Shown one piece after another: positions 3,827 through 60,917 of a stretch of DNA of 64,000 nucleotides. Each line of letters begins with the position of its first letter. Within the stretch, counting starts at the first letter, position 1. The stretch is from Taiwanofungus camphoratus (lineage: Eukaryota > Basidiomycota > Agaricomycetes > Polyporales > Taiwanofungaceae), in assembly GCA_003999685.1 (NCBI GenBank), contig CP021232.1:558001-622000 (forward strand), in the 5' to 3' direction. The notes below the pieces were generated by a model, which worked only from the letters and a program-made list of their open reading frames with translations, was not told the origin of the DNA and did no database searches. Position numbers and translations under genes: made by a program.

Positions 3827-4114
3827 AGGACTGTTGGAAACGCCCTGGCGATTGGCACTTCGACCTCAAGCCCTAATGCCAGCCGATTATACATTACCTG
3901 ACGCGTACTATATCATGTGACCGCGCTTCCCGCCCCTCGCCCAAACCTGAAAACCGGAGAAAATCTATTGAGTCTAAAGCCGATCGGACGGCATTTATTC
4001 GTAGAGATACAATAGGTAGCGATCTATGCAAAGCAAGGTACTCTGAGAAGTCCATTCGGTGTACTTTTGCAGTCGGGATATCGACACGCGTCATGGCTGT
4101 TGGCGTGAATACCG

Positions 4115-7044
4115 TCAGAACCGGCTGAGATCGCGACCAAAGATCCAGTTCATGAACCTGGCAGAGTGTCCGGTCAGCAGTGCCCCACGGCAGCTCAACA
4201 TTGAACACTATCACTCACCAATACATTGGCACCAGGATCCTGTCATGAGATATGTGAGTACCTCCCGTATATCAACACGAGCTCCAACGGGGTACTCACT
4301 TGTTCCTGATGCTGAGCGTCATGGTGAAGTACGCCGAGCGCCAGAGTAGCCACGCGACACGGCCTGTCTCCTTCGTGCGCGGCTTGCTCGCGGCCTTCGT
4401 GCGGTCGTACACCGCCTCCCAGTTGCCGAGGTACGCGAGGCTGCCTGCGTTCTGGAACTTGAACGGCTCGTTTTGCGGTCTATCCCTGATGAGCTTGTTG
4501 AGCTTCTTGTACATGTACTTGGCTTTTTGGTTCGCGACTTCGGGGGCAGTCCTCGTCTCAGTGGCCGGATGTATACTAGTCAAAAAGCACTGGATGTACC
4601 TTGCGCGGTGGCCGGAAGAGGAGTTCCCCTTATCATTGCCGCATCACCGATGGCCCAAACGTCGGGGTCGGGCTTCCCTGTCTCCTTCAAGACGATGTTG
4701 AGGTTATCGTCAGTGATTAAACTGCAAGACAAACCCAATATCCAAAGCATTCAGAATATGACTACTCATTTACTGTAGACGTCAAGAGACCGACCTGCTA
4801 GTCTTCGGATCCTTCTCTATCTCCGTGATAGATTTCACGAGCGGATTAGGTGCGAGTCCAGTACTCCATACCAACAGACCGAAGGGTACTGCGAGAAACG
4901 TTCATAAAGACTGACAAGTGACGAATGAGGGGATGTTCCTACTTTCGCCTTGCTCCCTGACATACATCTTGTTCTATCCCAAGACAACAATCAGTACGCA
5001 TCCAAACTGTCCAAGAACAAAGACCACTCACAGCCTCGACGCGCTCAACATGGTGCTGCGTGAGGATGTTGATGCCCTCCCGGTTGAACTTCTTGACCGC
5101 GAAGCTACGCAAACGCACACATCAGCACCGGCGCGCGTGTGTCAGGAGGACGAAGCACGCACTCCTGCAGCCCCTTGTCGAAGCTCCCGAGGATGGACGG
5201 CGCGACGTCGTACAACGAGATCCTCGCCATGCGCGTGAGGGAGGGGAAGTGCCGCTTGAGGTCTGTGTCCAGGAAGTCGTGCAGCTCTGCAGAGAACTCC
5301 ACGCCCGTCGGTCCTCCACCGACGATACAGAAGTGTAACAGTTTTCGCCTGTCGTCGTCCGTGACCGTCGGCTGATTCGCCTGCTCGAAGCCTGTCCCGC
5401 TATTAGCGGCGTCCCGCACTCCACTAGCTAGCCAGACTCACACTCGAGTATCCGCGTCCGGATCGCCCGTGCATCGCGGATATCCTTCAGGAAGTGCGCG
5501 TGCTCCTTCACCCCTGGCACGCTGAACGCTGTGCGCAATGAGCTATGTAAACACACCAACGCGGCAGGGAAGTACGCGACCGCACGCACTCTGGTTGTAC
5601 GCCCCGACTGCAATCACCAGCTTGTCGTAGCGCAGTCGGAAGTGGCTCCCCGACCCGGGATACGTCACCGTCGTTGGGTCTGCGTTTGGCGGGGATGACT
5701 TTTCTCCCCGGAACGAGATCGGCGGCGTTGCCGGCATCTGCCGGGATGTGAGTGTCGCAGAAGCTGCGGTAAATGTCAGAGCATACGCACGCATTCGAGC
5801 GTCTTGCGCTTAAAGTCTGGCAAATCCACGTCAATTCCGGTTTAGCACAGGTGCAACGGGCGCCTACCTATGGAATCACACCATGCTTGGTACGCGCCCT
5901 GGGCAAGACCAATGAGACAATGCTCCGGCTATAAGGCTAATCGGCTTACCACTTGAGGCGTGTACCGCCTGACCTAGAAGACCGTGCTCATCAGTACTCG
6001 CAGAGACACGGAGGAGACGCCCAGCTCACTGGCTCGACGGCCGCACGGAACTCGAGCGTCCCCACAGCACAGCCTGCGAGCAGCGGCGTGAAGTTGAAGT
6101 AATTACTTGGAGAGACTACCGTAACATCTGCAATGAAAGCCAAGCATCAGACACCGTCCACAAACCCCTTGTCAATTGACAAATGACGCTAGAAACAGAA
6201 GGCCCAGAAAATGAAACGGGAAGGAAGAAAAAAAAAAGAAAACGTAGGGCAGTCAAAGAGCGCAGCTCTAAGCACTTCAACACTGTCCGGACAGGCACTC
6301 TTGGCCTTCTTTAGAATATTTACTATGTCAACAATCAAATGTCAGGAATTTTTTCACTGTGCTAAACACCCGCATTATGTTGAAGGTATTCCCGTTGACC
6401 AAACTGTAGCACAGGAATTCAGCCCAGGTGGTGTGCCAGCTGTGGATGTCACGTGGCTGTGTTGTGCAGCTCTATGACTATAGTGGAAAAATCCTAAGAC
6501 AATTGCTGCCCAAATTGAGGCGACATCTCAAACTGTGGTAGTACTCTCTGGGGACATGGCAATTGTGGCCCACGCATGTACCCCTTATCATTCTGCAGCG
6601 TACACAAAGGGCACGGAGCGCTCATGCAACAGGGACTGATCTCCACAGCACAACTTGGGTGTATGCGTCACACGAGCACCACCCCGACTCACGTCGAATC
6701 AGATGCTGTCCATCCAACTGCAGGCTTGTATGCGGGCAGAATCTGATGGGAGGGGGACGCATTGGAGAGCATCACGTCGTGATCTGGTCCTGGCATTGTA
6801 TCGAAGCATGGTTCATCGAGCGGTTTCGCACACCTGACGAAAAAGAAGAAAAAAAGGTCAAGTCACACTCACTCCAGCGATTCTTGTCAATCCCTCGAAG
6901 AAGCTCGTATCCTCCCCAGCCGGAGCCGAGGATGACGAGGTGCTGTTGGTTCCGCGCGGCAGACGCACTGAAATTACGCTTGCCAGTCCTAACGTAGATG
7001 TCCGCTGTCCGGGTAGAGACAGGAAGAGGAGTGCGTCGTAACAT
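4115..7044 (-). CDS. Mitochondrial alternative (type II) NADH dehydrogenase
   Basis: Rotenone-insensitive NADH:ubiquinone oxidoreductase of the NDE/NDI type, a flavoprotein that passes electrons from NADH to ubiquinone without pumping protons. Translation starts at 7044 with an Arg/Ser-rich mitochondrial presequence ([12 protein letters not shown]...RNFSASAA). The FAD Rossmann motif [10 protein letters not shown] follows, then [19 protein letters not shown], then the NADH-binding Rossmann motif [19 protein letters not shown]. The C-terminus rebuilds well across introns: [20 protein letters not shown] and [13 protein letters not shown], with the stop at 4115-4117. The near-terminal membrane-anchoring helix typical of the family is therefore present. 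Whether it is external (NDE) or internal (NDI) cannot be decided by eye. Its first intron (6128-6872) is about ten times longer than the others. Confidence 0.92.
6128..6872 (-). other. 745-bp first intron of the NADH dehydrogenase
   Basis: Exon 1 ends at 6873 with a gtgagt donor, and exon 2 begins at 6127 after ttgcag. The join gives [11 protein letters not shown] in frame. Neighbouring introns are about 40-70 nt. The interior has unrelated short frames, a purine-rich run (aagaaaaaaaaaagaaaac, near 6227-6243) and no clear terminal inverted repeat. It may be an old insertion, or it may carry a regulatory element or small RNA. Confidence 0.7.
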
Positions 7045-36084: not shown

Positions 36085-39000
36085 CTAGTCGGCCACGTCA
36101 TAAATCGTTCGAACAACGTGGTCCGCTTTTCTCCCCGTATGCTTTATGAAGCCCATATAATCGAGCTCATGCAGCGCCCGAATGAATCGCGCCTGCACCT
36201 GCACCTTCCAGTCTTCACCGTCATCATCAGTCTCGTCCCCGTCTTCTACATCCATCACGTCCTCTTCACCCTCGTCTACTTCCGTCATGCGCTCCTTCCC
36301 CTGCCCTATCTCACTCACAAGAGGCGCATCACCACGCGTGGCCTGCGCATCCTTCAACCGCCGTTGATGCCGCCGCTGGCTCTCGAGCACAACAGCAAAG
36401 GACTGGAACCAATCGTACACATTGATCATCCGCCCCGCCTCCATGTACCTTCGGAAGAGAATGCTCGTGTCTGGCAGCTCTCGCAGAGCAGGTGGCGCTC
36501 GTGCCAAATCCTTGCCATCTGTCTCCCTTATGTCATCAGTACCACCTTGATCCGCCGTATGTTCACGGGCCCCAAGTAGAAGCGCACGATAGGCATGAGC
36601 ATACTCGTACGGATGCAAAAGGGCAGAAACTATTGTTGCTCGGGGGGCGGGATTGATGAGCTAAGAAAGGGAAAGTCACATCAAAGGTGACCTGTAGGTT
36701 TCAAATGGTGGGTGCACGCACCTCGGACGGATACGGAGTCGAGCCAGTGTACCAGATATCCCAAAGAGGTCCTTCATCCAACCTGACGAAGCGCTCTCTG
36801 TAGATTTATGCATATGCCATGTCAGAGCCTTGTCCACAATACAAGTGAGACGCCCGAGCAGCACGTACTCTAGATACTGTACGAACCACTCGCTTACGCC
36901 TGCCGCCAACGATGCCACGGCAGACGTCTTCGCTCCTGCAACGTCCTCACTTCCTTCTTCTGGCTCAGAGGACACATCAACTATGGCATCGCCTGAATCA
37001 GGCATTTGTGCCATTACACCCATGGCCCATATCCGGGTGTCCTCTTCCTCCCTCCTTGCGGGGTCCCCTAAGCTGTCAAAGACCTCGACCAGCTGCCGAA
37101 GCAAAGCATGCAATTTGAGCGCGGGAAGTTTTCTGCGACGGGTACACGTAGGAGATCAGAAACACCGCATGCGACACTAGCGGTGACGGTACCTACTTGA
37201 CGATCATTCCGAGATACCTAACTTCTCGGCTGGCACGTCCACGGAGTGCCGCACTCAAAAATTGTAGTTCATCCACCCCCCCTTCTGGTCTTCTTCTCTT
37301 TGTGGCATGGCCTGGGTGCCCGAACGCTACTCGGCGCACGATCCGCGCCACGCACAAGGCCATGCACATCCGGCAAGCTTTCTGACGGAATCTTAGGCGC
37401 GCCGTCCGAATGGCCTCTGAGATTCCGGGAATACCGCATTCTGGGAGGCTGCGCGGGTTCGATCCAGAGTAGAGACGCGCATGAAGGACATCGAAGAATT
37501 GGCGAGGGGCAGACGGTGGTAGATTTGTGTCGGCGGCGAAGTGAACGAGGACGGTAAGCGGCTCCTCAAAGTGTTTTAGGTGCGCTATCTGGCGGAGGAG
37601 AGTTGGTCCGCATCATTTGAGCGTGCAATAAGGAGAGTAATTTTGGCAAAAGGAACAAGTCTGGTGAGTGCTGTGTAGAAGGTCATACGCTAGGCGGACG
37701 TACTTGCAGAAGGGTGAAGATTGCGTCTAGAGATGGACTGTGGCGGGAGGAAAAATCTGCGATGAAGTCCAGAGTAGCTGGGCCAAGCATAACATCTGGC
37801 TCAAAGTTGGGATCAAAGAAGGTCTTCATGCGTTTTGCTTTGAGCTTATATACAATAACCAAAAGTTATACTACTCACTTCAGTGATAATTTGCTCGACT
37901 ATGGCTGGCCCGGAAGGCGCAGTGAATATGCGAACCCGAAGCAGAGCGAGAGTAGAGCGGGAATAAGCTGCATGGAGATAAGATGGTGTCAATGGGGACG
38001 AAAGTGCAAGGAGGAAGACGAGAGGAAGACGTCGAATATGCATACTATGCAGCAAATGTCAATGTCTCTGAGAGAAAGATGAATTCATGTGGTGAATACC
38101 TGCATATGTAGAATACGTCTTGGACGATTCCAGGGTCGAATTGTTCGAAATCATGCAAGAAGACGACAAGCTTTGGCCTGTGCCCTGAGATTAAGACAAA
38201 AAGTAAGACACGGTGGTGTGATGAGCAATACAGCACAGACCAAGAACATCGTACCATGCTTCGAGAAGATTCAGATCATAATTTGCAAGGGATGCCGTTG
38301 GCTTGCGCTTCAAGCTATCTAATAGACCATGAAAGCGGATTAATTTGGATAAAGACATATAGACACAGTACGTACCATCAGATTGTTCGACAAAGCCCAT
38401 CACTATAGCCTTCATCACGGACAAAACATTTGAGCAATCAGCGGGATGCAAGTGAATTTGCCTGGCTAGACCACCAGATAACGAGTTCTCCGATGCGGCT
38501 TCCTCGGATGTAGGCTCATCAAGTTGTCTGATAATCTCCATGTACATAGAAGAGCTCCCTGGTTCCGCTGAAAAGGTTGCTAAATTCATATTGAAAATCT
38601 GTAATCACTTCAGACTACGCACCAGATACAGCGATGACGGGAATTTCGGAATGAGGTAAGCCAGGAAAGGCATCAGTATATGCATGCTTGACTTGATCCA
38701 CGACTTCTGCAGTGACTGAGGCATACAGGGATCGTACAATTGACTGGGCAGATATACGTGAGTAAATGTCAGCTTGCCCTCACGCGTTAGCAATGAAACA
38801 GATCAGGCAACCTGTAATGTAAAATGCCTTATGGCCACCTCAACGGCGCAATCATAGTCCCATAGCTTGGGCACTGAATAAGAACAAGCCTCTTAGAACC
38901 GCTCCCAATCAGCGAACTGACACCAGTCGTTCCGAGACACCTTTTGAGATCCCTACATGTTGTGTAGCTCGATCACCCGAGCCTCCAACCAGAATGTCGC

Positions 39001-39999: not shown

Positions 40000-40526
40000 C
40001 TGTGTCTCGGCATCTGCCGGTGCGCGCCCCTTGGCCAGTCCGCCACTTCCCATAGTCACCATATCAGGTGACCACTATGCGATTCAACCCAAAGCAACAC
40101 AATCTGAACATGCCTTGTGCTACGATTGCAGACCATTGTGCTTTGTCTGCAAAATGCATACAGTTGATAGCTATGTAGTTTCCATATTACAAATGAAATA
40201 ATGCCAACGGGTCCATTACATTCTCCAAGCAAGGTTTCTGCCGATAACACCTCCCGAGTAAGATTATAATTAAACATAACGGTAACCGTAGAAGTGGTAA
40301 GGGCGTTGGAAGCACAGGGGTACATAGATCTCTAATAGTTCCCAGTCGGCGCAGACTATGCTATGCAATCATCTATTCTCTTGTGGGGAGGTATGTAATA
40401 TTACCCATGAGATCGAAACACGTCAAAGTTTTCGAATACCTTCACTCCTCGAGATTGCGTCCCCCTTACATACACAGTTTTCGTTCCAAGTATGGGATCA
40501 TGCGCTGCTGTCTTACATGCAGAAGT

Positions 40527-43167
40527 TTACTTCTGACGCCGCTTCTTCTTGCTCTTTGAAGTAGGCCGACCTCGCCGGGGAGGTGCTGCGCTAGGATTCC
40601 CATCTCTTGATCCCGAACCCTGCGGCGCCAACTCTTCTGTGTCATCCCTGTCTTCCTCTACCTGCTCCCGCTGGCGCTTTCGCGAATCCTGTTTCGAGGA
40701 TCCCTCCTCAAATTTATCTTTCGTCTGAGCTTGGTGATTCTGTCGTAGCTCCAGACTGAGAGGACCCATTTCGATGCACAGACCTTTGCTCATGTCACGA
40801 AATGCTTTGGAAAAACGTTTGTGAAGTCCATCGGCAACCTTATGGTCAATTGTAGCAACCTGTCGTTCGGCCTGGCAGTAGCGATCTGTGAGTTCTTGCC
40901 TCAATTCCTCCAAAATCTGACCCAGTGCCTGAACGACTGAATCGAGACAGCATAGCTTCTCGAAGAAAACGTCACCAGGTCGCATGACGTTACCTCTTAC
41001 TGCCTTGTCATAAAACAGCCCCCTCGCGTATACCATCTGAGTCTTGAGTCGTTTTTTAAATGCCGGGTCTTCACCACTGTCGCGGACCACTTTCTTCTTG
41101 AAGAGGAAATAGACTGCGACCCACCAGACGGATTCTAGATCATGAAGCGGGTTATATCGAAATCTAGAATCCGTCCTCTTGTTGGCGTCTAGTTTTCTGA
41201 CAGGTAAACCGTCGGATTCGATGTCGTTTGTATCATCATCATTGTTTCCGGAGGAACTGTTGTTAACAGGGTTCGATTTGAACAAGTACATTTGATTATC
41301 GATCTCTACCGCGATGAAATCAGCCGTTCCCTAGCAAAGTTTACAATACTCATATTATAAAGAATTTGACGCATTCGAATAATGGTTTAGCACGCACCGT
41401 ACGAACTTCATGCGAACTCGGCTGGCCCATTCTCTTCGCGTACTCCAGATCCCCCAGTCTTCCATTTCCATCTTTGTCTACGAGAATGTTTCCCGTACTT
41501 ATGTCACGATGGACCCACCCACTGCGGTGCATAAGCTGCAGCGCTGATCGGGGCGAAAAAGTTAGAAACGAGAAAGAACGTCAAAGCCAAGCGCCGCTTA
41601 CCATCGGTTATGTGGCTGAGAACCTTCAAGATAAGGGCTAAGGAGGTTATTTTGTAAAATGGTTTGCAAACTTCCTTGAAAACGATACGATAATGAGCCT
41701 TGGGATGATGCATTGGGGGCGGTTCGATCATCTCCTGATTATATTCTTGCGGTGTGCGATAATGTCCGGTACCGGTGTTCGAACCACTCCAAATACCTTC
41801 CGGGGGAATTTGGACGTTGTATCTTGAACATTCGCTCGGAATTTCCATACTACGAGTCATGAGGGTACGAGTATCATCAGCATTACCATCGATATAGACA
41901 TCTCCATGATGGAGCACTGTCAGGAAACGAGCGTCGATATCCTCCCGGTCCTCTTCCGATGCAGCAGAATCACGCAGGCTTGCAGAAAGGTCGCCTTCCC
42001 GATCACGGTCACTATCGATCCAGGAGTCCTTCAGTGCGACAGAGTCACCGTATTCTTTATTACCCACAACCTTCCTGGCCTCCCAAACACGAGTACCTCT
42101 TCCTAACGGAGCATTGGCACCCACATCGGAGAGGACACCAATCGTGCGATATACGACTTCTTCAGCTTCCGGCGTACGTACGGTAATGTCATATCGGGGA
42201 GTACCATCACTGTGATATTGAATCTTGCCCTTCCCGTCCTTGGCAAATTTCATTGTAGGATCCCAGCCTATCTCATGTTCTTTGGCATACATGAGTGATA
42301 TGAAGAAGGAAGTGACAATTCTATGCTCCTGTCGTCCATAAGGTGAGAAACAGCCTTCCAGGAAAAAATATAGCAGCTCACATGCATGAAGTCAAATGAG
42401 TCGGAGACAAGCAGCTCAGCACGACTGCAGAACCACAATTTCATTCGTGTATCTTCAATCGTCAGTCCGAACGTGAATCGCCGACGTGGATCGTCACGCA
42501 TGCAGTGATGCATACTCCAAATCACCTTGCTGACGTTCTGCCACGAAAATAAAGACATGTCTGCATTGACTATGAACTGAACGCTTACGTCGTACTCTTC
42601 TTTCTTGCTAGTCAACTTTTTGTACTCGCAGGAAAGTCCAATATCAGCCCAGCGGATAGCATCGCCTCTGCGTCGCAATATCAAGCATCCGTCAGGACGC
42701 GTCTTCGAGGATCGTGTGTACGAGCTCGGAATGACGTTTGGATTGTTTTGAAGTTCCAAGGCATTGTCAGCCCTGGTTAGCTTGGCTGTTGCCTTTGCAA
42801 TCGCATTCGATATTTCCTTGAGTGGATCAAAGGCCTTGTCTTCCGTTAGACGAGAGCGTCGAGGGTCGACCTTAAAGGCTCTCCATCGATTCGATCGTGT
42901 AATGTGGCCTTGTTTCTTGAGTTTGGCGATGACCTCGTCTACATCGACCCCCTCAGGTAGCGGAGGAAGGATATTGTTAAGGAAGGATTCAATCGAAATC
43001 TGGGGAACAGATTCTCCTATATCTGTCAACAAGGCCGTACGGCCTTGGTTAAGGTTTCCAGTAACATATGAAGCGGTGCTGGTATGCTTCGCAATAGCGG
43101 GTGTTTCAAAATTAGTGGTTAAGGTGTCTGCCTTTCCTCGGACAGGGGTAGTGGGTCGCTCACCCAT
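40527..43167 (-). CDS. FunK1-type protein kinase, copy A
   Basis: Fungal-type protein kinase (FunK1). Start at 43167 (MGERPTTPVRGKAD). The N-terminal extension has SFLNNILPPLPEGVDVDEVI and SRWADIGLSCEYK-type blocks (here RWADIGLSCEYKKLTSKKEE), QNVSKVIWSMHHCMRDDPRR, then HEHRI joined to MYAKEHEIGWDPTMKF. The catalytic loop is MHRSGWVHRDISTGNILVDK, the activation segment RLGDLEYAKRMGQPSSHEVR joins across an intron to GTADFIAVEI, and the C-lobe has FRYNPLHDLESVWWVAVYFL. The tail is basic (KSKKKRRQK). Four introns are placed by comparison with copy B, and all give an open frame; the stop is at 40527-40529. The HRDIS-x-GN signature defines the family, which is greatly expanded in agaricomycetes and of largely unknown function. 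Confidence 0.92.
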
Positions 43168-43203
43168 ATTGGCTCGTCTGAGGAGAAATGCATTGTTTCT
43201 GTG

Positions 43204-43210
43204 TTATATA
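43204..43210 (-). promoter_or_regulatory. Candidate TATA box of FunK1 copy A
   Basis: On the minus strand gagtatataacac lies about 40 bp before the predicted ATG and is conserved in copy B. Because of this closeness, the mRNA leader should be very short, or the true start codon differs. Confidence 0.45.
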
Positions 43211-44452
43211 CTCCTGTGTGGCCTGCGGTGGCCTGAGAAGTTGCTTTGAGATGATAATCGTCGTGAGCAGGATGGTGGCTCACCGTGGCTGTCTTTCCGA
43301 ACAATGGGGCAACGTGCGACTGTGCAACTGTAACTCTACACGCACCAAAGCGGCTGATATACCAACGTTGTGGTGTACAAGGCTGTATTGGATCTCAATC
43401 TCGTTTGAGACTTGGTTCAAGTTGCAAAGCTAATGTAGTGCGATCAAAGACTGAGGACGCGTTAGCCACGTGATCGTGGATTTATGGCCGCTACAGTCTG
43501 ACTCTCGTGACTCTCGTCCGTCCATTGTGTTCGTTCAAAACGCCGTGGACTAGCGAACACGCTATATCCTTGGACAGTTCTCCTACAAGTACAACTACGT
43601 TGTCTTCTGGGCTTCCCACTTAGCGCCCTCAATCTGTAGCGTCACGCGCAATGACGTTTGTCTCTTTCTTGCACATCTGCTCGGGAAGCCCAAACTACGC
43701 AGTACTACCGTGGCATTTTGTGACTCTCGATTCTGCGTCTTTCGCGGAGTCAGAGTTTGTGAATGTCAGGGTCACATTCTCAGTCAAAGCGGCTATAGCA
43801 CTGTGTCTAGGCCAATCACGACTCACTAGCGCACGCTGATATCTTGTATGAACCCGCTTCTGGCGACCAGATCGAAACGAGTTACGGGTGTGCACGCGCT
43901 TTGGCTATGGCCCGTGGGACTGGGCTTTGGACACTGCAACTATCCACACACTAAGGTGTATGCTTATTCACTGACTCTATCGCCTGTCACAAACAGCACT
44001 ATATCGCACTACGTGCCGTGAATCCCTTTCGCTTGTCCCGCCGCGTTACTTTTCTTTGTGCTTGATTTGAAACCCTGATTTATGATAGTTCGTAATTGCC
44101 AGACACGGTAGAGGATCACGAGGTACACGCACAAGCGCTCTCATTCTGTTCTTGTGGCGATTCGGAACGCAAGAGCCACGCATGGTCCTCATTCCTCCTG
44201 CATTCCTCCTGCGTAAATTATACACCGAGGCTCTGTTTGCCACCGGCTTCAGGTCGATGCCACACATTATACTTATGTCGGTGCGTAATGTAAAGTAAGC
44301 TCTGAAATGATATGTGGCTGTTTTGCAAAAGAACATGTATATTTGGAACGAGGATTTCGGATCCTGAACTATCGGTACCGTGAGTCATGTAGCTACTGAA
44401 GCGGTGGCGTGTGTGCGATGCGTAAGCTTTTGAGTTGACCTCAACTCTTCGT

Positions 44453-45292
44453 TCAAGCGCCATCCTTGACAGCTTGCCAGGACGGTCGAGATGTGATATC
44501 TCTCCACCACCTGAGGACCAAAATGTGTTTCAAAACAAAACAAATCTTCAGGTAAGCAGTGTAATATAAACGGGGAGCGAACTGGCCTTGCGACATTGGG
44601 CCTCTTTTCTGATAGAAGCACATCTATGCCCATCACACCCAGCATAGAGCCATATGGGAGGTGAAATAAGTCAGCCAAAGTGATCTCCTGTGCAACAGCG
44701 CAGCAGTCAGTAAGGTATAACTACTAGCGTGTTCAGGAACTGACGTTGCCGGCGAGGTACTTCGTCTTAGAAAGAATGATCTCATAGGCGTCCAGCTTTG
44801 CATTTAGTACCTGGAGAAGATTAGCCACGACCTTTGAATCGCCAAGGCCCTTGCGTCTGCAGTCAAAAGTGGATTCAGCAAGCTTGCCCGCTTGACGTTA
44901 AATCACTGGTAGACTCACGGCTTGATGACCTTCTCAAATGCTATCCCAGACGCGAAAGGGTCGAAGTTGGTGAGCTCTATACTCGCAGCCTGCTCAAACA
45001 AAGCTGTTTTCTTCAGGTCTGCGGTGTCAGGCACGATCTTGTTGCCACGGCCCGCATACTTGAGTGCTATGTAGCGCCCTATAGCGCGACTTTCGAACAG
45101 CTGGAAGCCATCTTCTTCGACGATGAACGGTACCTGTCCGAACGGTTGGTTGGCCAAGAAGGCGCCATCCTTGTGCTCATTCTTGGTCAAGTCGACCGCG
45201 ACGAGCTCGTAGGGAACGTCCTTCTCCTTCAGAACGAGGGCAACTCGCCGGGTGCAGGTTGACAGGGGGGAACCGTAGAGCTTGATGACCAT
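44453..45292 (-). CDS. Glutathione S-transferase, phi/GSTF-like
   Basis: Conjugates glutathione to electrophiles or reduces peroxides in the cytosol. The N-terminal thioredoxin-fold domain is in the first exon: MVIKLYGSPLSTCTRRVALV, LKEKDVPYELVAVDL, the cis-Pro segment QPFGQVPFI, and the glutathione-binding ESRAIGRYIALKY. The Ser in SPLSTC is the likely catalytic residue. The helical C-terminal domain comes in later exons: FEQAASIELTNFDPFASGIA, VANLLQVLNAKLDAYEIILS, KTKYLAGN, ITLADLFHLPYGSMLGV and WWRDITSRPSWQAVKDGA, with the stop at 44453-44455. ITLADLFHLPYG is the typical N-capping box. It is the only GST in the window. Confidence 0.9.
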
Positions 45293-45987
45293 CTTCGTGT
45301 ATTTGCTTGGGATGTGGAAATACGAGGTTCAATTTATATCCTGTTAAGGCGCTGATGTATCTTCCTCTTATCGATCATCAAACTCAGAGGTTGTTGACGG
45401 TAGTACGTGTACCCAATAATTCGTGAATAGTGGCCGCCGTCCAATGTTCTACTTCGTGACGGCCACGGTTACCATTTGTATGTATGCACTTCTCAGTGGA
45501 GCTTCTTCGAATAGACGACTTGTCAGCTGTATATCAGGCACAACCTTGTTGAAACATATGTGGGAATTGAGACCTCTTATGGAGAAGTGCGGGGAGGCGC
45601 AAGTTTGGCTTCATGTTCTTTATGGTGTTCAAACCCTCACGATGAGTGCGAAGATTGCTTCGGGACTGCCTTGTCGATGGTCACTCGATAGTGCACCGCC
45701 AAAAGGTGGTCCAGTGGCTGTCACGAGCCCAAACACGGAAGCGCCTCTGCCAAATCCGCTATCATCGAGTGGAAAGCAGCCGTTCAAGTGCCGTATCTAT
45801 GACGCGCCGCCGAACGGCTGCTCCAGACGCCTTGCAATGGTAGTTCAATTGGGTGATGATGAGCCCTTTACATGTGATCAGACGTGTCTGAGGAGGGCCC
45901 CCGAATGGAATAGTATAAAGGATATGCTCTCGTTAGGACGTGTCTTCTGCGAAAGCTAGTGCAATCATAAACCCAGCTGTACGGGCG

Positions 45988-47194
45988 ATGGCGAAGCTTA
46001 TTGCAGTCTGTGGTGCAACAGGAAATCAAGGCATGCTCTTCCTCCTGGCATGGTGCACATACCATGCTGACACTGAGGCTACAGGAGGCTCGGTTGCCAA
46101 GCACCTCTTACAGTATCCAGATCAATACAAAGTCCGTGCATTGACTCGCAATCCCCAGTCTCAGGCGGCACAAGAATTGGCCAAGCTGGGAGCCGAAGTG
46201 GTAAAGACTGACCTGACGGTTCCTTCAGAGGTCACCGAAGCGCTAAAGGGCTGTTGGGGCGTTTTTGGTGTCACTGACTTCTACGACGTGGTGAGGTCGC
46301 TGCGTCAAGAATTTGAAACTGTGCAGAAGCGCTGATACATGAGATTGCTAGAAAATCAAGGATGATCCCGGCAGCGAGGAACGACAGGGCAAAAATCTGG
46401 TGGATGCGGCGCTGGCAGCAAATACCCAATGCTTTGTTTGGAGCACCCTGCCTAGCTCCAGGAGAATTTCTGGCGGACGACTAGTCTCCCGGATCTACGA
46501 AGGTGAATTTTCACTGATATCTTTTGAGAGTATCCTCTGATATAAGTCTGTCTTAAAAGGTAAATATCAAGTCGACGACTACATCAGAGAGAAGGGGCTG
46601 CCGGCATCCTTCTTGTACACCGGTAATTTCTATGAGAACATGGTGTTCCGGTCGCACATGCGATATGATGCTGAGAAGGATGTTGTGGAGTTCAGGCAGC
46701 CGATCATCAAAGAGACCACAAAATGTGAGCGTCATATGCCCCGATGATTGTGAAGATACTAACCTAGAGGAAGTGGCAATGTTGTATGTCGAGAAGGACC
46801 TGTCTGGCGTCGTAAAGGCGATATTTGATCAGTGGGAGACGAAGAAAGACGATCTCAATCACCAATACCTCTACGTGACGAACACCCGGATTACGCCACT
46901 CGACATCCTCGCGAGCGTGAAGAAAGGTGGCTTATGGCTTCGCAACTGTCGTGCTGTACTCATACTCTCGCTATCATCCCAGTGACAGGAAAAGAGGCCA
47001 TTTACACAGTCCTTCCCACTACCGGCGTCCCCGATCGCGATATCATGTTTCAGCTGTACAACGAGATGGGAATGTACGGAGCGAAGGAGATCCCGGACGA
47101 AAAAATAATGAAGCTTGGTGTCCAGCTCCACGATGTCGACGATTTTGTCAGGTCAAGGTTAGCACCGCACTTGGGTCTACCGGTCATAGGTTGA
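45988..47194 (+). CDS. NmrA-like NAD(P)-binding protein
   Basis: Atypical short-chain-dehydrogenase fold. The first exon gives MAKLIAVCGATGNQG (dinucleotide motif GATGxQG), and after an intron GGSVAKHLLQ, then VRALTRNPQSQAAQELAKLG, EVVKTDLTVPSEVTEALKGC and WGVFGVTDFYD. Later exons carry DDPGSEERQGKNLVDAALAA, VWSTLPSS, GLPASFLYTGNFYENMVFRS and AMLYVEKDLSGVVKAIFDQW. The C-terminal exon is ITGKEAIYTVLPTTG-like (VTGKEAIYTVLPTT...) and ends LAPHLGLPVIG, stop 47192-47194. The usual SDR Tyr-x-x-x-Lys pair is not evident, as in NmrA/HSCARG proteins, which sense NADP rather than catalyse. Role here unknown: redox sensing or nitrogen-control type regulation. Confidence 0.88.
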
Positions 47195-47697
47195 GCTGTA
47201 CGAGACGAATGGTAATTTTGTACATGACATTGTACCCATATACGACGGCGGCATGTAGTGCGATATAATGCTGTTTGTGACAGGCGATAGAGTCAGTGAA
47301 TAAGCATACACCTTAGTGTGTGGATAGTTGCAGCGTCCAAAGCCCAGCCCACGGGCCATAGCCAAAGCGCGTGCACACCCGTAACTCGTTTCGATCTGGT
47401 CGTCAGAAGCGAGGTCATACAAGGATATCAGCGTGCGATAGTAAGTGGTGATTGGCCTAGACCCAGTACTATAGCCGCTTTGACTGGGAATGTGACCCTG
47501 ACATTCATAAACTTCGACTTCGCGAAAGGCGCAGAATCGAGGGTCACAGAACGCCACGGTAGTACTGCGTAGTTTGGGCTTCCCGAGTAGATGTACGAGA
47601 AAGAGACAAAATTCATAAGCGTGGCGCTACAAATTGGGAGCGCCGAGTAGGAAACCCAGAAGACAACTAGGAGAGCTGTTCAAGGTTGTAGCAGTTT

Positions 47698-47726
47698 GTG
47701 TTCGCTAGGCGTTTTGAGCGAACACA
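47698..47726. repeat. Foldback in the FunK1 upstream region
   Basis: gtgttcgct and agcgaacac flank aggcgttttg. The left arm has a related foldback at 43527-43560 (gtgttcg...cgaacac). Its presence in both arms argues against pure chance. Confidence 0.45.
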
Positions 47727-47999
47727 ACGAGAGTCACGATTAATCCGCGATCACGTGGCCAACGCGTCCTCAGTCTTCGATCGCACTGCATTAGCTTTAC
47801 AACCAAGTCCCAAACGAGATTGAGATCCAATACAGCCTTGTACACCACAACATTGGGATATCAGCCGCTTCGGTGCGTGTAGAGTCACAGTTGCACGTTG
47901 CCTCATTGTTCGGAAAGGCAGCCACCGTGAGCCACTATCCTGCTCACGACGATTATCATCTCAAGGCAACTTCTCAGGCCACCGCAGGCCACACAGGAG

Positions 48000-48006
48000 T
48001 ATATAA
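48000..48006 (+). promoter_or_regulatory. Candidate TATA box of FunK1 copy B
   Basis: tatataa inside gagtatataacac, about 40 bp before the ATG at 48043, and identical in copy A. Two ATGs follow: 48019 (short frame MHSSSDEPIW..., overlapping upstream ORF) and 48043 (kinase). Confidence 0.45.
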
Positions 48007-48042
48007 CACAGAAACAATGCATTCCTCCTCAGATGAGCCAAT

Positions 48043-50695
48043 ATGGGTGAGCGACCCACTACTCCTGTCCGAGGAAAGGCAAACACCTTAACCACTAATT
48101 TTGAAACACCCGCTATTGCGAAGCATACCAGCACCGCTTCATATGTTACTGGAAACCTTAACCAAGGCCGTACGGCCTTGTTGATAGATATAGGAGAATC
48201 TGTTCCCCAGATTTCGATTGAATCCTTCCTTAACAACATCCTTCCTCCGCTACCTGAGGGGGTCGATGTAGACGAGGTCATCACCAAACTCAAGAAACAA
48301 GGCCACATTACACGATCGAATCGATGGAGAGCCTTTAAGGTCGACCCTCGACACTCTCGTCTAATGGAAGACAAGGCCTTTGATCCACTCAAGGAAATAT
48401 CGAATGCGATTGTAAAGGCAACAGCCAAGCTAACCGGGGCTGACAATGTCTTGGACCTTCAAAACAATCCAAACGTCATTCCGAGCTCGTACACACGATC
48501 CTCGAAGACGCGTCCTGACGGATGCTTGATATTGCGACGCAGAGGCGATGTTATCCGCTGGGCTGATATTGGACTTTCCTGCGAGTACAAAAAGTTGACT
48601 AGCAAGAAAGAAGAGTACGACGTAAGTGTTCAGTTCATAGACAATGCAGACATGTCTTTATTTTCGTGGCAGAACGTCAGCAAGGTGATTTGGAGTATGC
48701 ATCACTGCATGCGTGACGATCCACGTCGGCGATTCACGTTCGGCCTGACGATTGAAGATACACGAATGAAATTGTGGTCTTGCAGTCGTGCTGAGCTGCT
48801 TGTGTCCGACTCATTTGACTTCATGCATGTGAGCTGCTATTTTTTTTCCTGGAAGGCTGTTTCTCACCTTATGGACGACAGGAGCATAGAATTGTCACTT
48901 CCTTCTTCATATCACTCATGTATGCCAAAGAACATGAGATAGGTTGGGATCCTACGATGAAATTTGCCAAGGACGGGAAGGGCAAGATTCAATATCACAG
49001 TGATGGTACTCCCCGATATGACATTACCGTACGTACCCCGGAAGCTGAAGAAGTCGTATATCACACGATCGGTGTCCTTTCCGATGTGGGTGCCAATGCT
49101 CCATTAGGAAGAGGTACTCGTGTTTGGGAGGCCAGGAAGGTTGTGGGTAATAAAGAATACAGTGACCCTGTCGCACTGAAGGATTCATGGATCGATAGCG
49201 ATCGTGATCGGGAAGGCGACCTTTCTGCAAGCCTGCGTGATTCTGCTTCATCGGAAGAGGACCGGGAGGATATCGACGCTCGTTTCCTGACAGTGCTCCA
49301 TCATGGAGATGTCTATATCGATGGTAATGCTGATGATACTCGTACCCTCATGACTCGTAGTATGGAAATTCCGAGCGAATGTTCAAGATACAACGTCCAA
49401 ATTTCCCCGGAAGATATTTTGAGTGGTTCGAACACCGGTACCGGACATTATCGCACACCGCAAGAATATAATCAGGAGATGATCGAACCAATGCATCATC
49501 CCAAGGCTCATTATCGTATTGTTTTCAAGGAAGTTTGCAAACCGCTTTACAAAATAACCTCATTGGCCCTGATCTTAAAGGTTCTCAGCCACATACTCCA
49601 TGGTAAGAGGCCCTTATCTTTGACGTTCTTTCTCGCTTCTAACTTTTTCGCCTCGATCAGCGCTGCAGCTTATGCACCGCAGTGGGTGGGTCCATCGTGA
49701 CATAAGTACGGGAAACATTCTCGTGGACAAAGATGGAAATGGAAGATTGGGGGATCTGGAGTATGCGAAGAGAATGGGCCAGCCGAGTTCGCATGAAGTT
49801 CGTACGGTGCGTGCTGAATTATTATCCCAATGCGTCAAATTCTTTATAATATGAGTATTGTAAACTTTGCTAGGGAACGGCTGATTTCATCGCGGTAGAG
49901 ATCGATAGTCAAAAGTACTTGTTCCAATCGCAACCTGATGAAGACAGTTCCTCCGGAAGCGATGATGACTCTGGGACGAGCCAAGTGTCAGAGAACCAGT
50001 CTTCGTCTAGTGCCTTGAGTACAGACTCCTCTAAGGGTGAGGATATTCGATTTCGATATAACCCGCTTCATGACCTTGAATCCGTCTGGTGGGTCGCGGT
50101 CTATTTCCTCATCAAGAAGAAAGTGGTCCGCGACAGTGGTGAAGACCCGGCATACAAGGAAGACCTCGCAACTCAGATGGCATACGCGAGCCAGCTTTTT
50201 TATGGCAAGGAAAGACTTGCTGCCTTGGGACATGATAAAGTTTTCTCCAAGATGCTATACTGTCTTCATCATCCAATCGTTCGGAAATTCGGCCAAGTTT
50301 TAGAGAAAATAAGGCAGAAGCTCACTCGGCGCTACCGCAAGGCCGAACGACTCGGACACATTGCTGCAATCGACCATAGGATTGCCAATCGACTTCACAA
50401 ACGTTTTTCCCGAAAATTTCTTCGCATTAGCAAAGGCCTGTGCATCGAAGTGGGTCCTCTCAGCACGCAGCTACGACAGAATCACCAAGCCCAGACGAAA
50501 GATGAACCTGAGGACGGATCCTCGAAACAGAATGTGCGAAAGCGCCAGCGGGAGCAGGTAGAGGAAGACCGGGACAACATAGAAGAATCGGCGCCGCAGG
50601 GTTCGGGATCAAGAGATGGAAATCCTAGCTCAGTACCTCTCCCACCAGTCCAGCCCACTTCAAGGAGCAAGAAGAGGCGGTCCCGTCGAAAGTAA
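48043..50695 (+). CDS. FunK1-type protein kinase, copy B
   Basis: Inverted paralogue of copy A. Start at 48043 (MGERPTTPVRGKAN). Introns: after KKEEYD (gtaagt...ggcag) joining to NVSKVIW; after DSFDFMH (gtgagc...gacag) joining to EHRIVTSFFISLMYAKE; after VLSHILH (gtaaga...atcag) joining to ALQLMHRSGW; and after SSHEVRT (gtgcgt...gctag) joining to GTADFIAVEIDSQKYLF. The catalytic loop HRDISTGNILVDKDGNGRLG and the C-lobe block FRYNPLHDLESVWWVAVYFL are intact. The C-terminal third differs strongly from copy A (Ser/Asp-rich insert SSSGSDDDSGTSQ, and other substitutions), while the first two-thirds are nearly identical. Stop at 50693-50695 after a basic tail (RSKKRRSRRK). Confidence 0.92.
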
Positions 50696-51073
50696 ACCTC
50701 TGGATGTAGGATAGTTATGCATGATCCCGTTCTTGGAACGAACATATGTATGTAAGAGGGACGCGATCTCGACGAGTGAATGTACTCGAAAACTTTGGCC
50801 TGTTTTGCTCTCATGGGTAGGTGATATTACACTGCGTCCCCACAAGAGCATAGCGATGATCTGCGCCAACTGAGTGGGAACTTTTGCAGATCTATGTACT
50901 CCTGTGCGTCCAAAGCCCTGACCACTTCTACCAACGTTGTGTCTACTTATTACGCATTGTGCCTTGAAGATTTCAATTCAATGACATCACTAACCACGAC
51001 CTGGGAATTGATGACTGCTCGCCGCACATAGAACGAGATAGGCCCTTACAGGATGGCGAGTAAAGACAGCTGT

Positions 51074-51972
51074 TTATTCATCTGGGGTATTAGTAGGCAC
51101 AAAGGCGCCCAACGACATTGCCCAGTGGGTTTTGTGGAAGGTTTGCTCTTGTGTGTCATACCAACCCGCTGCAAAGCGCCGAGTCCACGTCCACATCCAA
51201 GGCTCATTGTAAACCACATGCATACTGCAGCATTCGAACCATGGTAGATATACCCCAGAGCACCCCCAATCGATCAACCAGACCTTCTCTTCATCATCCA
51301 GGACGATGTTGCGCATACTGATGTCCCATCAACGAGCACTAGTGGCTCCGATGCATCGAATGGGAGACAGTCAATACCATATTCCATCACATGCTGAGAC
51401 GTCCGAAGTCTCCCATTGAGCCAATTGGCCAATCCAGTCTTTGTTGAGAAAGGCCCGACTTCATATTCTCCGGTCATGGGTCCGTAGCACTTGAAGGGTT
51501 GACTAGGCACGTCGGTGACTGGTCCGGGGACCTCAAGAATGATCTGTTCGGTGCTGATTCGGCGAAGCTGCCGAATATAACTTCGAAGTGCCCATGCCAC
51601 CCTTATCTTTCCCCAAATCCCGAGCACATCTCAACACTTCTCAAGGGTATGACTCTTCACATACTCCATGACCAGATAGGAATCGTCATCTGTCGCGAAG
51701 AAGCGTAGTACTCTTGGTACGAGGATCGATCGCACTAGTTCCATAGTACGAGCCTCCCATGATTTTATGTCACAACCGGTCTTCACAATGACATCTGGAG
51801 TCAAGATATAGAAAGGTGGAGGTCCTAAACTGGGTATATCTGACGGAACTTGCAATTGTGGCGCATTTTTGCACAACTCAATTATTTCATCATTTGTGAG
51901 CGCATCAGATGAGGAGGTCTGAGGACAGCGCGAGAAGAAATTTTTGATTTCGCAATGAGTCTGCAGAAGCAT
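51074..51972 (-). pseudogene. APH-like kinase relic 1
   Basis: Aminoglycoside-phosphotransferase-fold (fungal APH/choline-kinase-like) gene. Recognisable parts: LTNDEIIELCKNAPQLQVPS, PSLGPPPFYILTPDVIVKTG (ATP-lobe strand and Lys), EARTMELVRS, RFFATDDDSYLVMEYVKSHT, LGIWGKIRVAWALRSYIRQL, FSTKTGLANWLNGRL, ISMRNIVLDDEEKVWLIDWG (metal-binding Asp in IDWG), then CSGVYLPWFE. Breaks seen: an in-frame TGA after HTLEKC near 51631, where relatives have Trp, and a frame change at the catalytic HGD. The DNA ctcgttgatgggacatcagt should read as LVHGDIS but has lost one base and changed His. Function is therefore unlikely. Confidence 0.72.
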
Positions 51973-52334
51973 TGGTCCTCACCGTCTCAATGAATGCAGG
52001 CCCTTCAGCGACCTTTCCTCGATACAAGATAAGAGACCTCAGACATAGTGCTTGCCAATTGGACGGAATGGCTGCCACCGTGCGGCTGCAACTAGTACTA
52101 GTAGGGAAGTGAGCGAGGTAACAAAAACACCTTGGGGGATAAACACCTACCACAGAAGTTATGTCGAGATAGGAAGGCTGACACAGGGATCCGTCAGAAT
52201 CCAGATAGCTTCAATTCATGGCACAATCTATACATGACCGCTACAATATGCCCGGTGATCTCTGTGTATCAGTCATCAGTTAGAGGAGGACAGGAGGATC
52301 CAGCCGATGTAGCCCAATGCGCTCCCCAGATGAA

Positions 52335-53145
52335 CTACTGTTGCAATTCATACCATCCCGCTGCAAGGCGACGAGCCCATGTCCAAGAACTAGGCTCGTC
52401 AACCTGATGCATACTACAGTAATCGAACCAGGGAGGTTACACTCCCGCGCACCCGACCTTGTTATTATCGCCAAGGATGATGTTCCGCATGCAAAGACCC
52501 CCATGAACAAGTACGAGAGGTTCAGAGGCGTCAAAAGGGAAACAAAGGAGGCCATGGCTCATCACATATTGAGAGGCCCGAAGCCTTCCGTTGAACCAAC
52601 TTGCTAGTTCGGCCTTCGACATGAAGGGAACTACTTCGTTCTCGCCCAAACGGGCCCACAGCACACCAACGGTTCTGACATATTTTTCGTGACTGGACCA
52701 GGAACCTCGGCCGTTATTTGAGCCGTCTGGACACGACGCATCTGGTGCACGTATCTTCGAGGTGACCACGCCACTTTGATCTTTCGCCAGATACTGAGCT
52801 TACCCCGACACCGTTCTAGGGTATGACCCTTGATGAAGTACGATCGATCGCCCTTTGTGAAGAATCGAAGGACTCTAGGTGTAGGAACAGAGGTTTGAGT
52901 TCGCACCAGCTCCATCATACGCGCCTCCCACGGTTGAATATCCCTGCCGGTCTTGACTACGATATCCGGGTCAAAATGTAGAACGGGAGCGGTCCTAGCC
53001 CTGGAACTGCCGAATGAACATCCAATTTCGGTGCCTTCTGACATAGTTCGATAATCTCATCATCTGTGAGTGCATCAATGTTCAAATGTGTCAACAACGG
53101 CGTCTGGGTCGATGACCAAGTATCATCAATCGTAACATGCATCAT
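52335..53145 (-). pseudogene. APH-like kinase relic 2, tandem paralogue of relic 1
   Basis: Same layout as relic 1: ALTDDEIIELCQKAPKLDVH, LGPLPFYIL, PDIVVKTGRDIQPWEARMME, LVRTQTSVPTPRVLRFFTKG, GHTLERCRGKLSIWRKIKVA, then SKAELASWFNGRLRASQYVM, LVLVHGGLCMRNIILGDNNK. The catalytic HGD is HGG. The WLIDW block with the metal-binding Asp is missing: KV runs straight into GCAGV, and this is followed by a stop where relatives have Tyr. After it the frame resumes as PPWFDYCSMHQVDEPSSWTW, ending GWYELQQ at 52335-52337. It also needs a frame change near 52975 and another near 52660. A decayed duplicate. Confidence 0.72.
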
Positions 53146-58452: not shown

Positions 58453-60917
58453 ATGCCAAGTGAACCCTTTGGTCCTGAAGAGGAACCTACGGAGCAAAGC
58501 AAGAAGATCGAGTGGCTCGAAGCAAAGGTCCTGTCAATTGTTCAACCATTTCCCCCATCCTCACATACTTAGTGCGCTGTAGGTCAGGGAGATGGGGCAC
58601 ATGCACGACAAGCTCAGGAGGGAGATTTTTGACGCCGCTCAGCGGGGACATCGGTTAGCTCATAGCATGGGCTTTGAAAGCATTGAAGAAGCAGAATCAG
58701 CAATCTCTTCTCGCCCGCATATCTTTCATCGCACCTCCATAGAGCATACAGAGTCCCGTGTGGGGATTCTAGAGGGCCAGCTTGCAGATCACATCCGGTT
58801 GAACACGTCAGCCCAAAATACACTCGGACACACGCTTCAACTCACGATTGATCTAAGAAAGGAGAACACATCTCTTACTGAAGAGCTAACTGAAGCAAAG
58901 CGTGAAGCATCGGAACTGAAGAAGAGATTAAGCGAGTTCGAGAACGTTTCGGAAGGGTCGAAGCCTTTTCAAGTTGGTCTTCAGACACCTGTCTCATCTA
59001 TCGAGAAGAAGCAGTGCGTACATTCCTGGTCTCTTTAACTTGTGTTAGACCGTCGTCGTCGCAGACCGCTCCAGGATGGCACGACTGACAATCCTTCTCC
59101 GAAAATCCACGCCCGTCAAAGCCATCAGCAGAGCTCTGACGGGCCGTTGCTTACCTCGTCTTCTGCTCAAAAATCATCAACGGAGCCTTCTGAAGACGAC
59201 CCAGCCCAAGTAGCTCTCGAATTGCGCGAGTTGCGCCGAAAATATGATGCACTCCGCCAGGCGAAGGAGCGCAACGACGCAAAGTATAAGTCGGATTACC
59301 TCAAATGGAAGAAATTTAAGCAGTGGATATACGATGAGGAGGGCGACTCTATGGCGAATGGTATAACAGACGGAAAGACTCCGAAGTGGTCGCGTGTGCT
59401 CAGGATGCGGGAAGAATTCGCCAAGGTAGGGCCCCGCGTGAGTTCACCTACGAATTCGAAAGAGGGAGGATCTGCCAAAATCGAGTGCGTGACGCCGCCA
59501 ACCAGTTAGTCTTCCTTTCGTTGTACAGGTACTAGTACTGATAGCTCTGCTTCAAGCAGATGATCGTGACGCTCCTGCAGACTCATTGAGCGATCCGAAG
59601 AGCGTCGTGGTCAATCCGCCTTTGAGCTCTCTTGCTGCCAGGCTATTTGGAAGTGAGAACGTCGAGAAGGAGACTGTCAAGTCACCTAGGTTGCCGAGTG
59701 TGTCCCTACTATCGAATGCTGATAGTCAGCCGACGCTCGATAGCGTTGCCTCCGGGCCGCCATCCTCGCCTATTCACAGATCGAAGAAGCGTAAATTCGA
59801 AGAAGCAATGTCTTCTGAAACGGAGGACGACTCGCAAGGCAAGTCCTCCCTGTGACTGTTATCCCTATCCAAGTTGGATCTAGATTCTTGTTTACATAGC
59901 ACCTGAGCCTATATATTCGACTCAACCAGGACTTCGTCGCCGAGCGCCGAGCATATCTAACCGCGTACAGCAGGTCCCGCTGAAGGATTCTGGTGCACCG
60001 GGGGACCGCTCCAAGCTACCTCAAAGCACTCGCATGGCCGCATCGTCCCATGTGCCCAGCAGTCAGAATACTCCCACTCCGCGTTCCTCCGAGGAGCATG
60101 TTCCAAGACCATCGTCAGTGCGCAACTCAGCAACTCGCCGGCGTAATTCCAAGAAGTTAGGCGCAAGTTCGCCTTCAACTCCTGCCACAAAGACGAATGG
60201 CGGAAAAGAGAACATGGGAAGTGCTAGCGCTGGGAAACGATATCCGCAAGACTACTCAATATACAAGGGCAGGGGTCGGTATGCTGCAGAGGCGAGGTAA
60301 ACGTTCGAGTATGAATATAAGCTTTTTCTCATGTTTCATATCATAGTGCCAGCAAGAATACTATAAATGCAGTTTATCGAATCGACAGCGAGAAGAATGG
60401 TGGCGTTGATTTTCAATTCGATAACGTCGTGCGGAATGCAGAGGACAGGAAACAGTTGCATGCAGTGGATTGCAAGTGCTGTCATAGTGTAGGTGTTCCG
60501 TATCAGGCAGGTGTAGTGTGCGTCCGACTCATGCATGTTGTCAAGTATTATAAGGCTATTGGGCCTCTGCCCCCTCGCTTACAACGTCCTCTTTGGCGGT
60601 CACCCGAGTCTACACCCTCCAAACACCACAAGGATCGATCCGACTCTCCTGATGTCATCACTGACCAAATCAGTCACCCAACGGATCTTCCAGCTGGTGG
60701 AGAAGATGAGGTTGAAGCAGCCAAGTGTCAAGAACAAGCCATTGTAGAGCACATGCATGAGATCTCTCGGCACCGCCATCAATGGGAGCCTGCCTCGACA
60801 CCACCGAGCTACTGGAACATTGGATTCCCTGACACTCAGGAGGCCGCTGCGATCAATAAGCGTGCTCAGGAGATGCATGAGCAGAAGCGTGCAAAAGTTG
60901 ACATGGAAGCGCGGTAA
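58453..60917 (+). CDS. CtIP/Sae2/Ctp1-type DNA-end resection factor
   Basis: Cofactor of the MRN nuclease that starts double-strand-break resection. Start MPSEPFGPEEEPTEQSKKIE, then a coiled coil (about residues 20-170): MHDKLRREIFDAAQRGHRLA, RVGILEGQLADHIRLN, LRKENTSLTEELTEAKREA. A long disordered, Ser/Pro-rich middle follows. The conserved Ctp1/Sae2 C-terminal domain is in the last exons: RKQLHAVDCKCCHS joins across an intron (gtaggt...caag) to YYKAIGPLPPRLQRPLWRSP. Then come the RHR motif and its partner, ISRHRHQWEPASTPPSYWNI, GFPDTQEAAAINKRAQEMHE, and the basic end QKRAKVDMEAR. The stop is at 60915-60917. The CxxC pair and the RHRxxW...TPPxYW block are diagnostic. Middle exons are less certain. 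Confidence 0.87.

Follow-up and report, generated by a model that had tools for sequence, protein, structure and literature searches.

Organization of the Inverted FunK1 Locus

The window analyzed here is a stretch of 64,000 nucleotides (C13:558001–622000) from a genome of 33.2 Mb in 15 contigs. Its largest internal repeat is an inverted duplication. Comparison of the window with itself by blastn yields one long inverted match, of 40266–44018 with 50950–47249 (88.4% identity over 3792 columns, E = 0), and just two further self-matches at E ≤ 1e-5, of 51 and 121 columns. An inverted-repeat search of the window returns nine ungapped pairs that are collinear and agree with these arms. Arm A (40266–44018) carries its gene on the minus strand and arm B (47249–50950) on the plus strand, and the two are inverted paralogs that include non-coding sequence. 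The first-pass annotation had recognized this large inverted duplication of FunK1 genes, and its figures of ∼0.85 kb upstream and 0.24 kb downstream in each arm come close to the 851 bp and 261 bp found in arm A. An assembly artifact was considered, but the arms differ throughout, indels included, their flanks differ, the sequence between them is single copy, and the window is without any N; we regard an artifact as barely credible.

Each arm contains an intact five-exon FunK1 kinase, as first annotated. In our splice-site models, kinase A (40527–43167, minus strand; exons 43167–42589, 42537–42382, 42328–41602, 41543–41398, and 41330–40527) has 803 amino acids, and kinase B (48043–50695, plus strand; exons 48043–48621, 48673–48828, 48882–49602, 49661–49806, and 49874–50695) has 807. 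Both frames are open from ATG to stop, and introns of 51, 53, 58, and 67 nt are present in both. The PF17667 (Pkinase_fungal) profile matches residues 169–610 of A (182.3 bits, E 1.6e-53) and 170–611 of B (186.3 bits, E 9.6e-55), against a cut-off of 24.1 bits. Both translations have the catalytic loop HRDISTGN, in which, with numbering aligned by hand, serine replaces the lysine of subdomain VIB, a substitution that marks FunK1 kinases (PMC3203195). As described there, FunK1 kinases of mushrooms and Onygenales share the Pfam family, the HRDIS serine, and expansion by lineage-specific duplication, whereas those of Pezizomycotina have a glutamate after the serine where the copies here, aligned by eye, have T.

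The C-terminal thirds of the two kinases are 62% identical. Between GTADF..E, which we read by eye as subdomain VIII, and HDLES lies a linker that varies in both length and sequence among seven aligned exon-5 proteins. Judged from sequence, both kinases are probably translatable and usable, with predicted proteins nearly the same over the N-terminal two-thirds and different over the C-terminal third. That both copies are intact fits selection for keeping both. The locus also offers a natural setting in which to ask whether a functional difference between two kinases of nearly the same core resides in their tails.

The arms are separated by a 3.2 kb spacer (44019–47248) that occurs once in the genome, one 67-base match on C12 aside. 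It contains two predicted genes, each with a partial model. On the minus strand, 44915–45292 is the N-terminal exon of a putative glutathione S-transferase (GST) gene (GST_N, E 3.1e-17), the remainder of which would lie below 44915. On the plus strand, 45988–47194 is a putative NmrA-type oxidoreductase gene, of which 45988–46332 is matched (NmrA, E 5.4e-16) and the remainder assigned by eye. A unique spacer with two redox-type genes, as originally described, is therefore upheld apart from the 67 repeated bases. The two kinases are transcribed outward, with the GST gene running toward A and the NmrA-type gene toward B, so that each spacer gene has the same sense as the adjacent kinase. Because of this co-orientation, ordinary read-through would give sense RNA, and the antisense or double-stranded RNA that had been suggested as a product of read-through does not follow from the layout.

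Three other features of the window lie outside the arms. An ORF at 36088–36660 (minus strand) matches the ORC winged-helix C-terminal domain (E 2.8e-41). Another, at 60321–60914 (plus strand), matches the C terminus of SAE2/CtIP, a DNA-end resection factor (E 1.2e-18); its position 10 kb from the inverted repeat is probably coincidence. At 51074–53056 (minus strand), two adjoining stretches have similar ORF motifs that look kinase- or phosphotransferase-like by eye and are possibly a decayed tandem duplicate; neither matches a Pfam profile at the applied thresholds.

Arm-to-Arm Identity Is a Mosaic

The average identity of 88% hides a mosaic of blocks. Aligned in windows, as the first-pass annotation had proposed and as done here in hundred-column bins, the arms are homologous along their length and their identity is block structured. 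Among the 21 bins starting between A 41300 and 43300, 20 show 94%–99% A-B identity and the remaining one 90%. The bin just past this core falls to 64%, and identity stays at 64%–87% through the 11 bins spanning A 40248 to 41201. Upstream bins show 79%–93%, and the innermost bin 99%. The core of arm A (41301–43420, minus strand) comprises the proximal 5′ flank, exons 1–4, all introns, and the start of exon 5, and corresponds in bin alignment to 47798–49904 of arm B (plus strand; ends approximate). The innermost block of arm A (43850–44018, minus strand) is 3.6% from B, with 6/168 sites differing versus 50/384 in 43421–43849 (Fisher p 3.7e-4), and is a second possible conversion tract; inverted pairs and site counts place its counterpart in arm B at 47249–47417 (plus strand; end approximate).

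Silent and Non-Coding Sites Date the Duplication and the Core Differently

The same contrast is found at sites that are silent or non-coding. Within the core, A and B differ at 13 of 239 4-fold sites, 14 of 229 intron sites, and 12 of 241 sites of the 5′ flank. Outside it, they differ at 43 of 246 sites of the 3′ UTR (17.5%), 11 of 71 4-fold sites of the tail, and 50 of 384 upstream sites (43421–43849). Pooled, this is 39/709 (5.5%) in the core versus 104/701 (14.8%) outside (Fisher p 5.7e-9), a p value that does not come from a planned test, as the compartments were set after the profile had been seen and the low innermost block (6/168) was left out. Silent and non-coding sites of the core are therefore closer between the arms than the age of the duplication predicts.

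An external reference is provided by the closest paralog of the arms, on another contig (C14:191885–194949, 81%; hereafter C14). Distances of A and B from C14 are 0.173 in the introns, 0.196 and 0.208 in the 5′ flank, and 0.195 and 0.176 in the 3′ UTR, and core 4-fold sites are 23%–25% different from C14 in both arms. Since core introns and 5′ flank are 17%–21% from C14 in each arm, those regions are not unusually constrained. This bears on the idea that the likeness of the core reflects purifying selection rather than conversion. The low A-B dN/dS of the core (0.26) would be expected of such selection, but core introns, 4-fold sites, and 5′ flank match between A and B as well as the exons do, despite their distance from C14. 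The introns and flanks rule out this explanation, to which we attach next to no probability.

The 3′ UTRs of A and B, at 17.5%, are no closer to each other than those of A and C14 (19.5%) or B and C14 (17.6%). The separation of A from B is about as old as the separation of each arm from C14, so the recent event offered earlier as one explanation for two intact kinases is not what the sequence records. The cores of A and B were made alike later, by our estimate at roughly a third of that age if rates are even.

Substitution rates within the coding region follow the same boundary. A-B dS is 0.068 over residues 1–546 versus 0.309 over residues 547–803. In the latter, A-B dN/dS is 0.70–0.88 by section, and comparisons of either arm with a further paralog on C9 (copy E) give 0.48–0.77. 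If the inverted duplication were recent and its C-terminal tail evolved fast, such a profile might arise without conversion, in keeping with these ratios and with the strong variation of the linker across the subfamily. However, tail evolution alone cannot alter a non-coding 3′ UTR that is 17.5% apart or raise tail dS to 0.31, and A groups with C14 immediately past the boundary (see below). The 3′ UTR and silent sites rule this account out, and we consider it very improbable. Positive selection on the tail is not indicated either: dN/dS never exceeds 1 in any section of the A-B, A-E, or B-E comparisons, so that drift or relaxed constraint suffices.

The Nearest Relative of Arm A Switches within Exon 5

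Across the core, A and B are about equidistant from C14. In the first 430 bp past it, A is mostly 84%–91% like C14 and 65%–83% like B. We scored informative sites, defined by agreement between two of the three copies A, B, and C14, after removing 24 at which all three bases differed. These sites are best divided by a single split at A 41301/41296: before it, 315 sites join A and B, 36 join A and C14, and 30 join B and C14, and after it the corresponding counts are 54, 119, and 72. None of 10,000 shuffles reached this split score in a test that allows a free breakpoint.

Per-segment trees that add copies D and E on C9 to A, B, and C14, five copies in all, agree with this switch. The core tree groups A with B (100/100), and clades of A or B with C14 are rejected (AU p 0.0071 and 1.4e-6, respectively). 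For 41290–40860, by contrast, A groups with C14 (100/98), and the A-B clade is rejected modestly (AU p 0.0139). The tree of the final 330 bp of coding sequence (40859–40527) favors no grouping, with support of 58/37. The segment of A that groups with C14 and not with B (40860–41290, minus strand) consists of the exon 5 linker after kinase subdomain VIII and the region that follows; 83 of its informative sites join A and C14, 20 join B and C14, and 18 join A and B. Its counterpart in B is at 49914–50358 (plus strand), with approximate ends taken from inverted pairs and bin alignment. An acceleration of B past the switch is apparent with C14 as reference (20 versus 83) and is gone with E as outgroup, A having 42 changes of its own in the ∼430-bp segment and B 40. 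Replacement of the B tail by another surviving paralog was likewise rejected: a genome search with B exon 5 gives, after itself, A as best match (63%), followed by E (57%).

The affinity of A with C14 is confined to the ∼430 bp and is absent from the 3′ UTR. A-C14 homology reaches 40178, beyond the outer end of A-B homology. About 0.6 kb of upstream sequence common to A and B is missing from C14. We note that C14 looks decayed, with an exon 2 that is 17 nt shorter in alignment, introns 2 and 3 lacking GT donors at the aligned places, and a tail in three separate pieces. Copy D contains stops and is likewise split, whereas E reads through; decay of C14 and D can distort distances. The link between A and C14 may reflect an old exchange, or transfer of a copy of A to C14 at a time when the core had yet to be converted. 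Of these two possibilities, exchange is favored over descent of C14 from A because the 3′ UTR shows no A-C14 affinity.

Probable Gene Conversion between the Arms

Considered together, these data make it highly probable that an old inverted duplication was later homogenized blockwise by gene conversion, in addition to an older exchange or descent linking A and C14. One FunK1 kinase gene would have been duplicated in inverted, head-to-head orientation, and the copies would then have diverged for a long time. Some 2.1 kb, from the proximal promoter through exons 1–4 and the start of exon 5, would subsequently have been copied from arm to arm by non-allelic conversion, whether once or repeatedly; a further short tract at the innermost ends of the arms was probably copied too. 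Exon 5 past the subdomain VIII motif (the linker, the rest of the C-lobe, and the basic tail), the 3′ UTR, and the greater part of the distal upstream sequence would have been left out and would retain their original divergence. The grouping of arm A with C14 over the following 430 bp would go back to an earlier exchange between them, or else to C14 having descended from A.

The mosaic, the topology switch, and the excess of A-B silent and non-coding identity in the core, with none such relative to C14, are direct observations, made in one genome with dispersed paralogs as outgroups. From them we infer the mechanism, which would be homologous recombination repair without crossover, and any statement on the direction of copying or the number of events would be of the same inferred kind. 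Gene conversion had been one of three consequences envisaged in the first-pass annotation, and the block profile, the topology switch, and the silent-site contrast support it well. GC bias is common in conversion and not required by it; on the A-B stem in the core it is absent (63 W>S versus 63 S>W changes).

The case is a clear new instance of a known genome behavior. Conversion between inverted paralogs is described in a Caenorhabditis study (PMC1803023), in which long inverted repeats likewise hold divergent or convergent paralog pairs, alike within species in coding and non-coding sequence, a likeness credited to a mechanism that maintains it, for instance gene conversion. The evidence there spans three species; here it comes from one genome, and the homogenized block ends inside an exon. 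Arm-to-arm conversion in kilobase tracts is also reported for the human Y palindrome P6 (PMC3723533), with a mean tract of 2068 bp, compared with the ∼2.1 kb block here, but the P6 arms are >99.9% alike and show GC bias, whereas ours are 88% alike overall with a core free of GC bias. The passages of PMC3203195 considered here do not treat conversion, and we found no report combining FunK1 and gene conversion in the literature searched, within which the present case may be new to print.

Recombination between the arms might instead, or also, act as an invertible switch, crossover flipping the spacer and changing which kinase arm adjoins the GST or the NmrA-type gene. The geometry permits this, with inverted arms, a 3.2 kb spacer, and a 2.1 kb near-identical core, and conversion itself implies recombination between the arms. 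A fungal precedent is the MAT locus of Sclerotinia sclerotiorum, where a 3.6 kb region, a spacer of similar size, flips between 250-bp inverted repeats (PMC3574095). There, however, inversion is demonstrated and alters gene structure, whereas here a single assembly provides a single orientation, and a flip would truncate or re-promote no gene, each arm holding a full gene with its own 5′ flank. The human palindrome P6 moreover converts often and inverts rarely (PMC3723533). We consider such a switch improbable at this locus.

Blockwise conversion between the arms has a practical consequence: trees of whole FunK1 genes will put copies in the wrong place and give old duplications too young an age, so trees need to be built segment by segment. 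A broader reading, which we consider unlikely, is that close FunK1 paralogs in this fungus form a recombination-driven modular system, in which repeated conversion would keep a common catalytic core while the C-terminal tail and the linker that follows the substrate-recognition motif are spared or swapped, also across chromosomes as for A and C14, giving one engine with different tails. If true, this would be one route by which expanded families such as FunK1 diversify.

Other FunK1 Pairs in the Genome

FunK1 is a large fungus-specific kinase family, and this genome has at least 169 PF17667 profile matches. The close pairs that we profiled are A/B, D/E on C9, and a tandem pair on C5, with C5:2468189/2474661 and pairs on C8 left out. 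D and E form a convergent inverted pair (86.9%) with low-divergence blocks in the tail (13/312), the 3′ UTR (4/126), and parts of exon 1; their introns differ at 34/227 sites, and introns together with exons 3–4 at 15%. The C5 pair (C5:1751769/1755285) is a direct tandem, 3%–12% apart in the first half and mostly 19%–33% in the second, where one bin is at 11%; within the coding part, each copy is a flat 38%–54% from arm A. All three pairs are thus block structured, in three orientations, and the homogenized part differs by pair.

Two rules suggested by the A/B locus fail on these pairs. Because the direct tandem C5 pair is also blocky, inverted orientation is not needed, and the rule that it drives homogenization is not supported. 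Homogenization of the core with sparing of the tail is not general either, D and E having low divergence at the 3′ end. The simplest common cause is conversion among near neighbors, not palindrome geometry. No genome-wide preference for inverted pairs is seen among 28 neighbor pairs <15 kb apart (13 tandem, 10 divergent, and 5 convergent, in 85 clusters), a count that took in 150 of the 169 listed matches plus the two window genes, and not D of the D/E pair.

Further FunK1 copies lie in larger duplications. The divergent pair C5:2468189/2474661 (within C5:2464001–2480000) has inverted arms of 72.6% identity over 1.1 kb, and its enclosing block occurs twice in the genome, at 98.9% over 10 kb. 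In repeat-rich regions at C5:1.48–1.89 Mb, at C9:1.03–1.39 Mb, and on C11, FunK1 genes lie within near-identical duplicated blocks of 3–11 kb (92%–99%). Among these C5/C9/C11 blocks, ORF 446–1546 of locus L027 resembles, by eye, a retroelement integrase with a chromodomain. On C10, where no FunK1 gene is among the matches listed, C10:1717001–1725000 has a tail-only-like fragment with one stop (match at about 3902–4140). The block at C5:1747001–1767000 has two tandem FunK1 copies and that at C9:1220001–1238000 has one, and the way the two blocks match fits copy loss by direct-repeat recombination.
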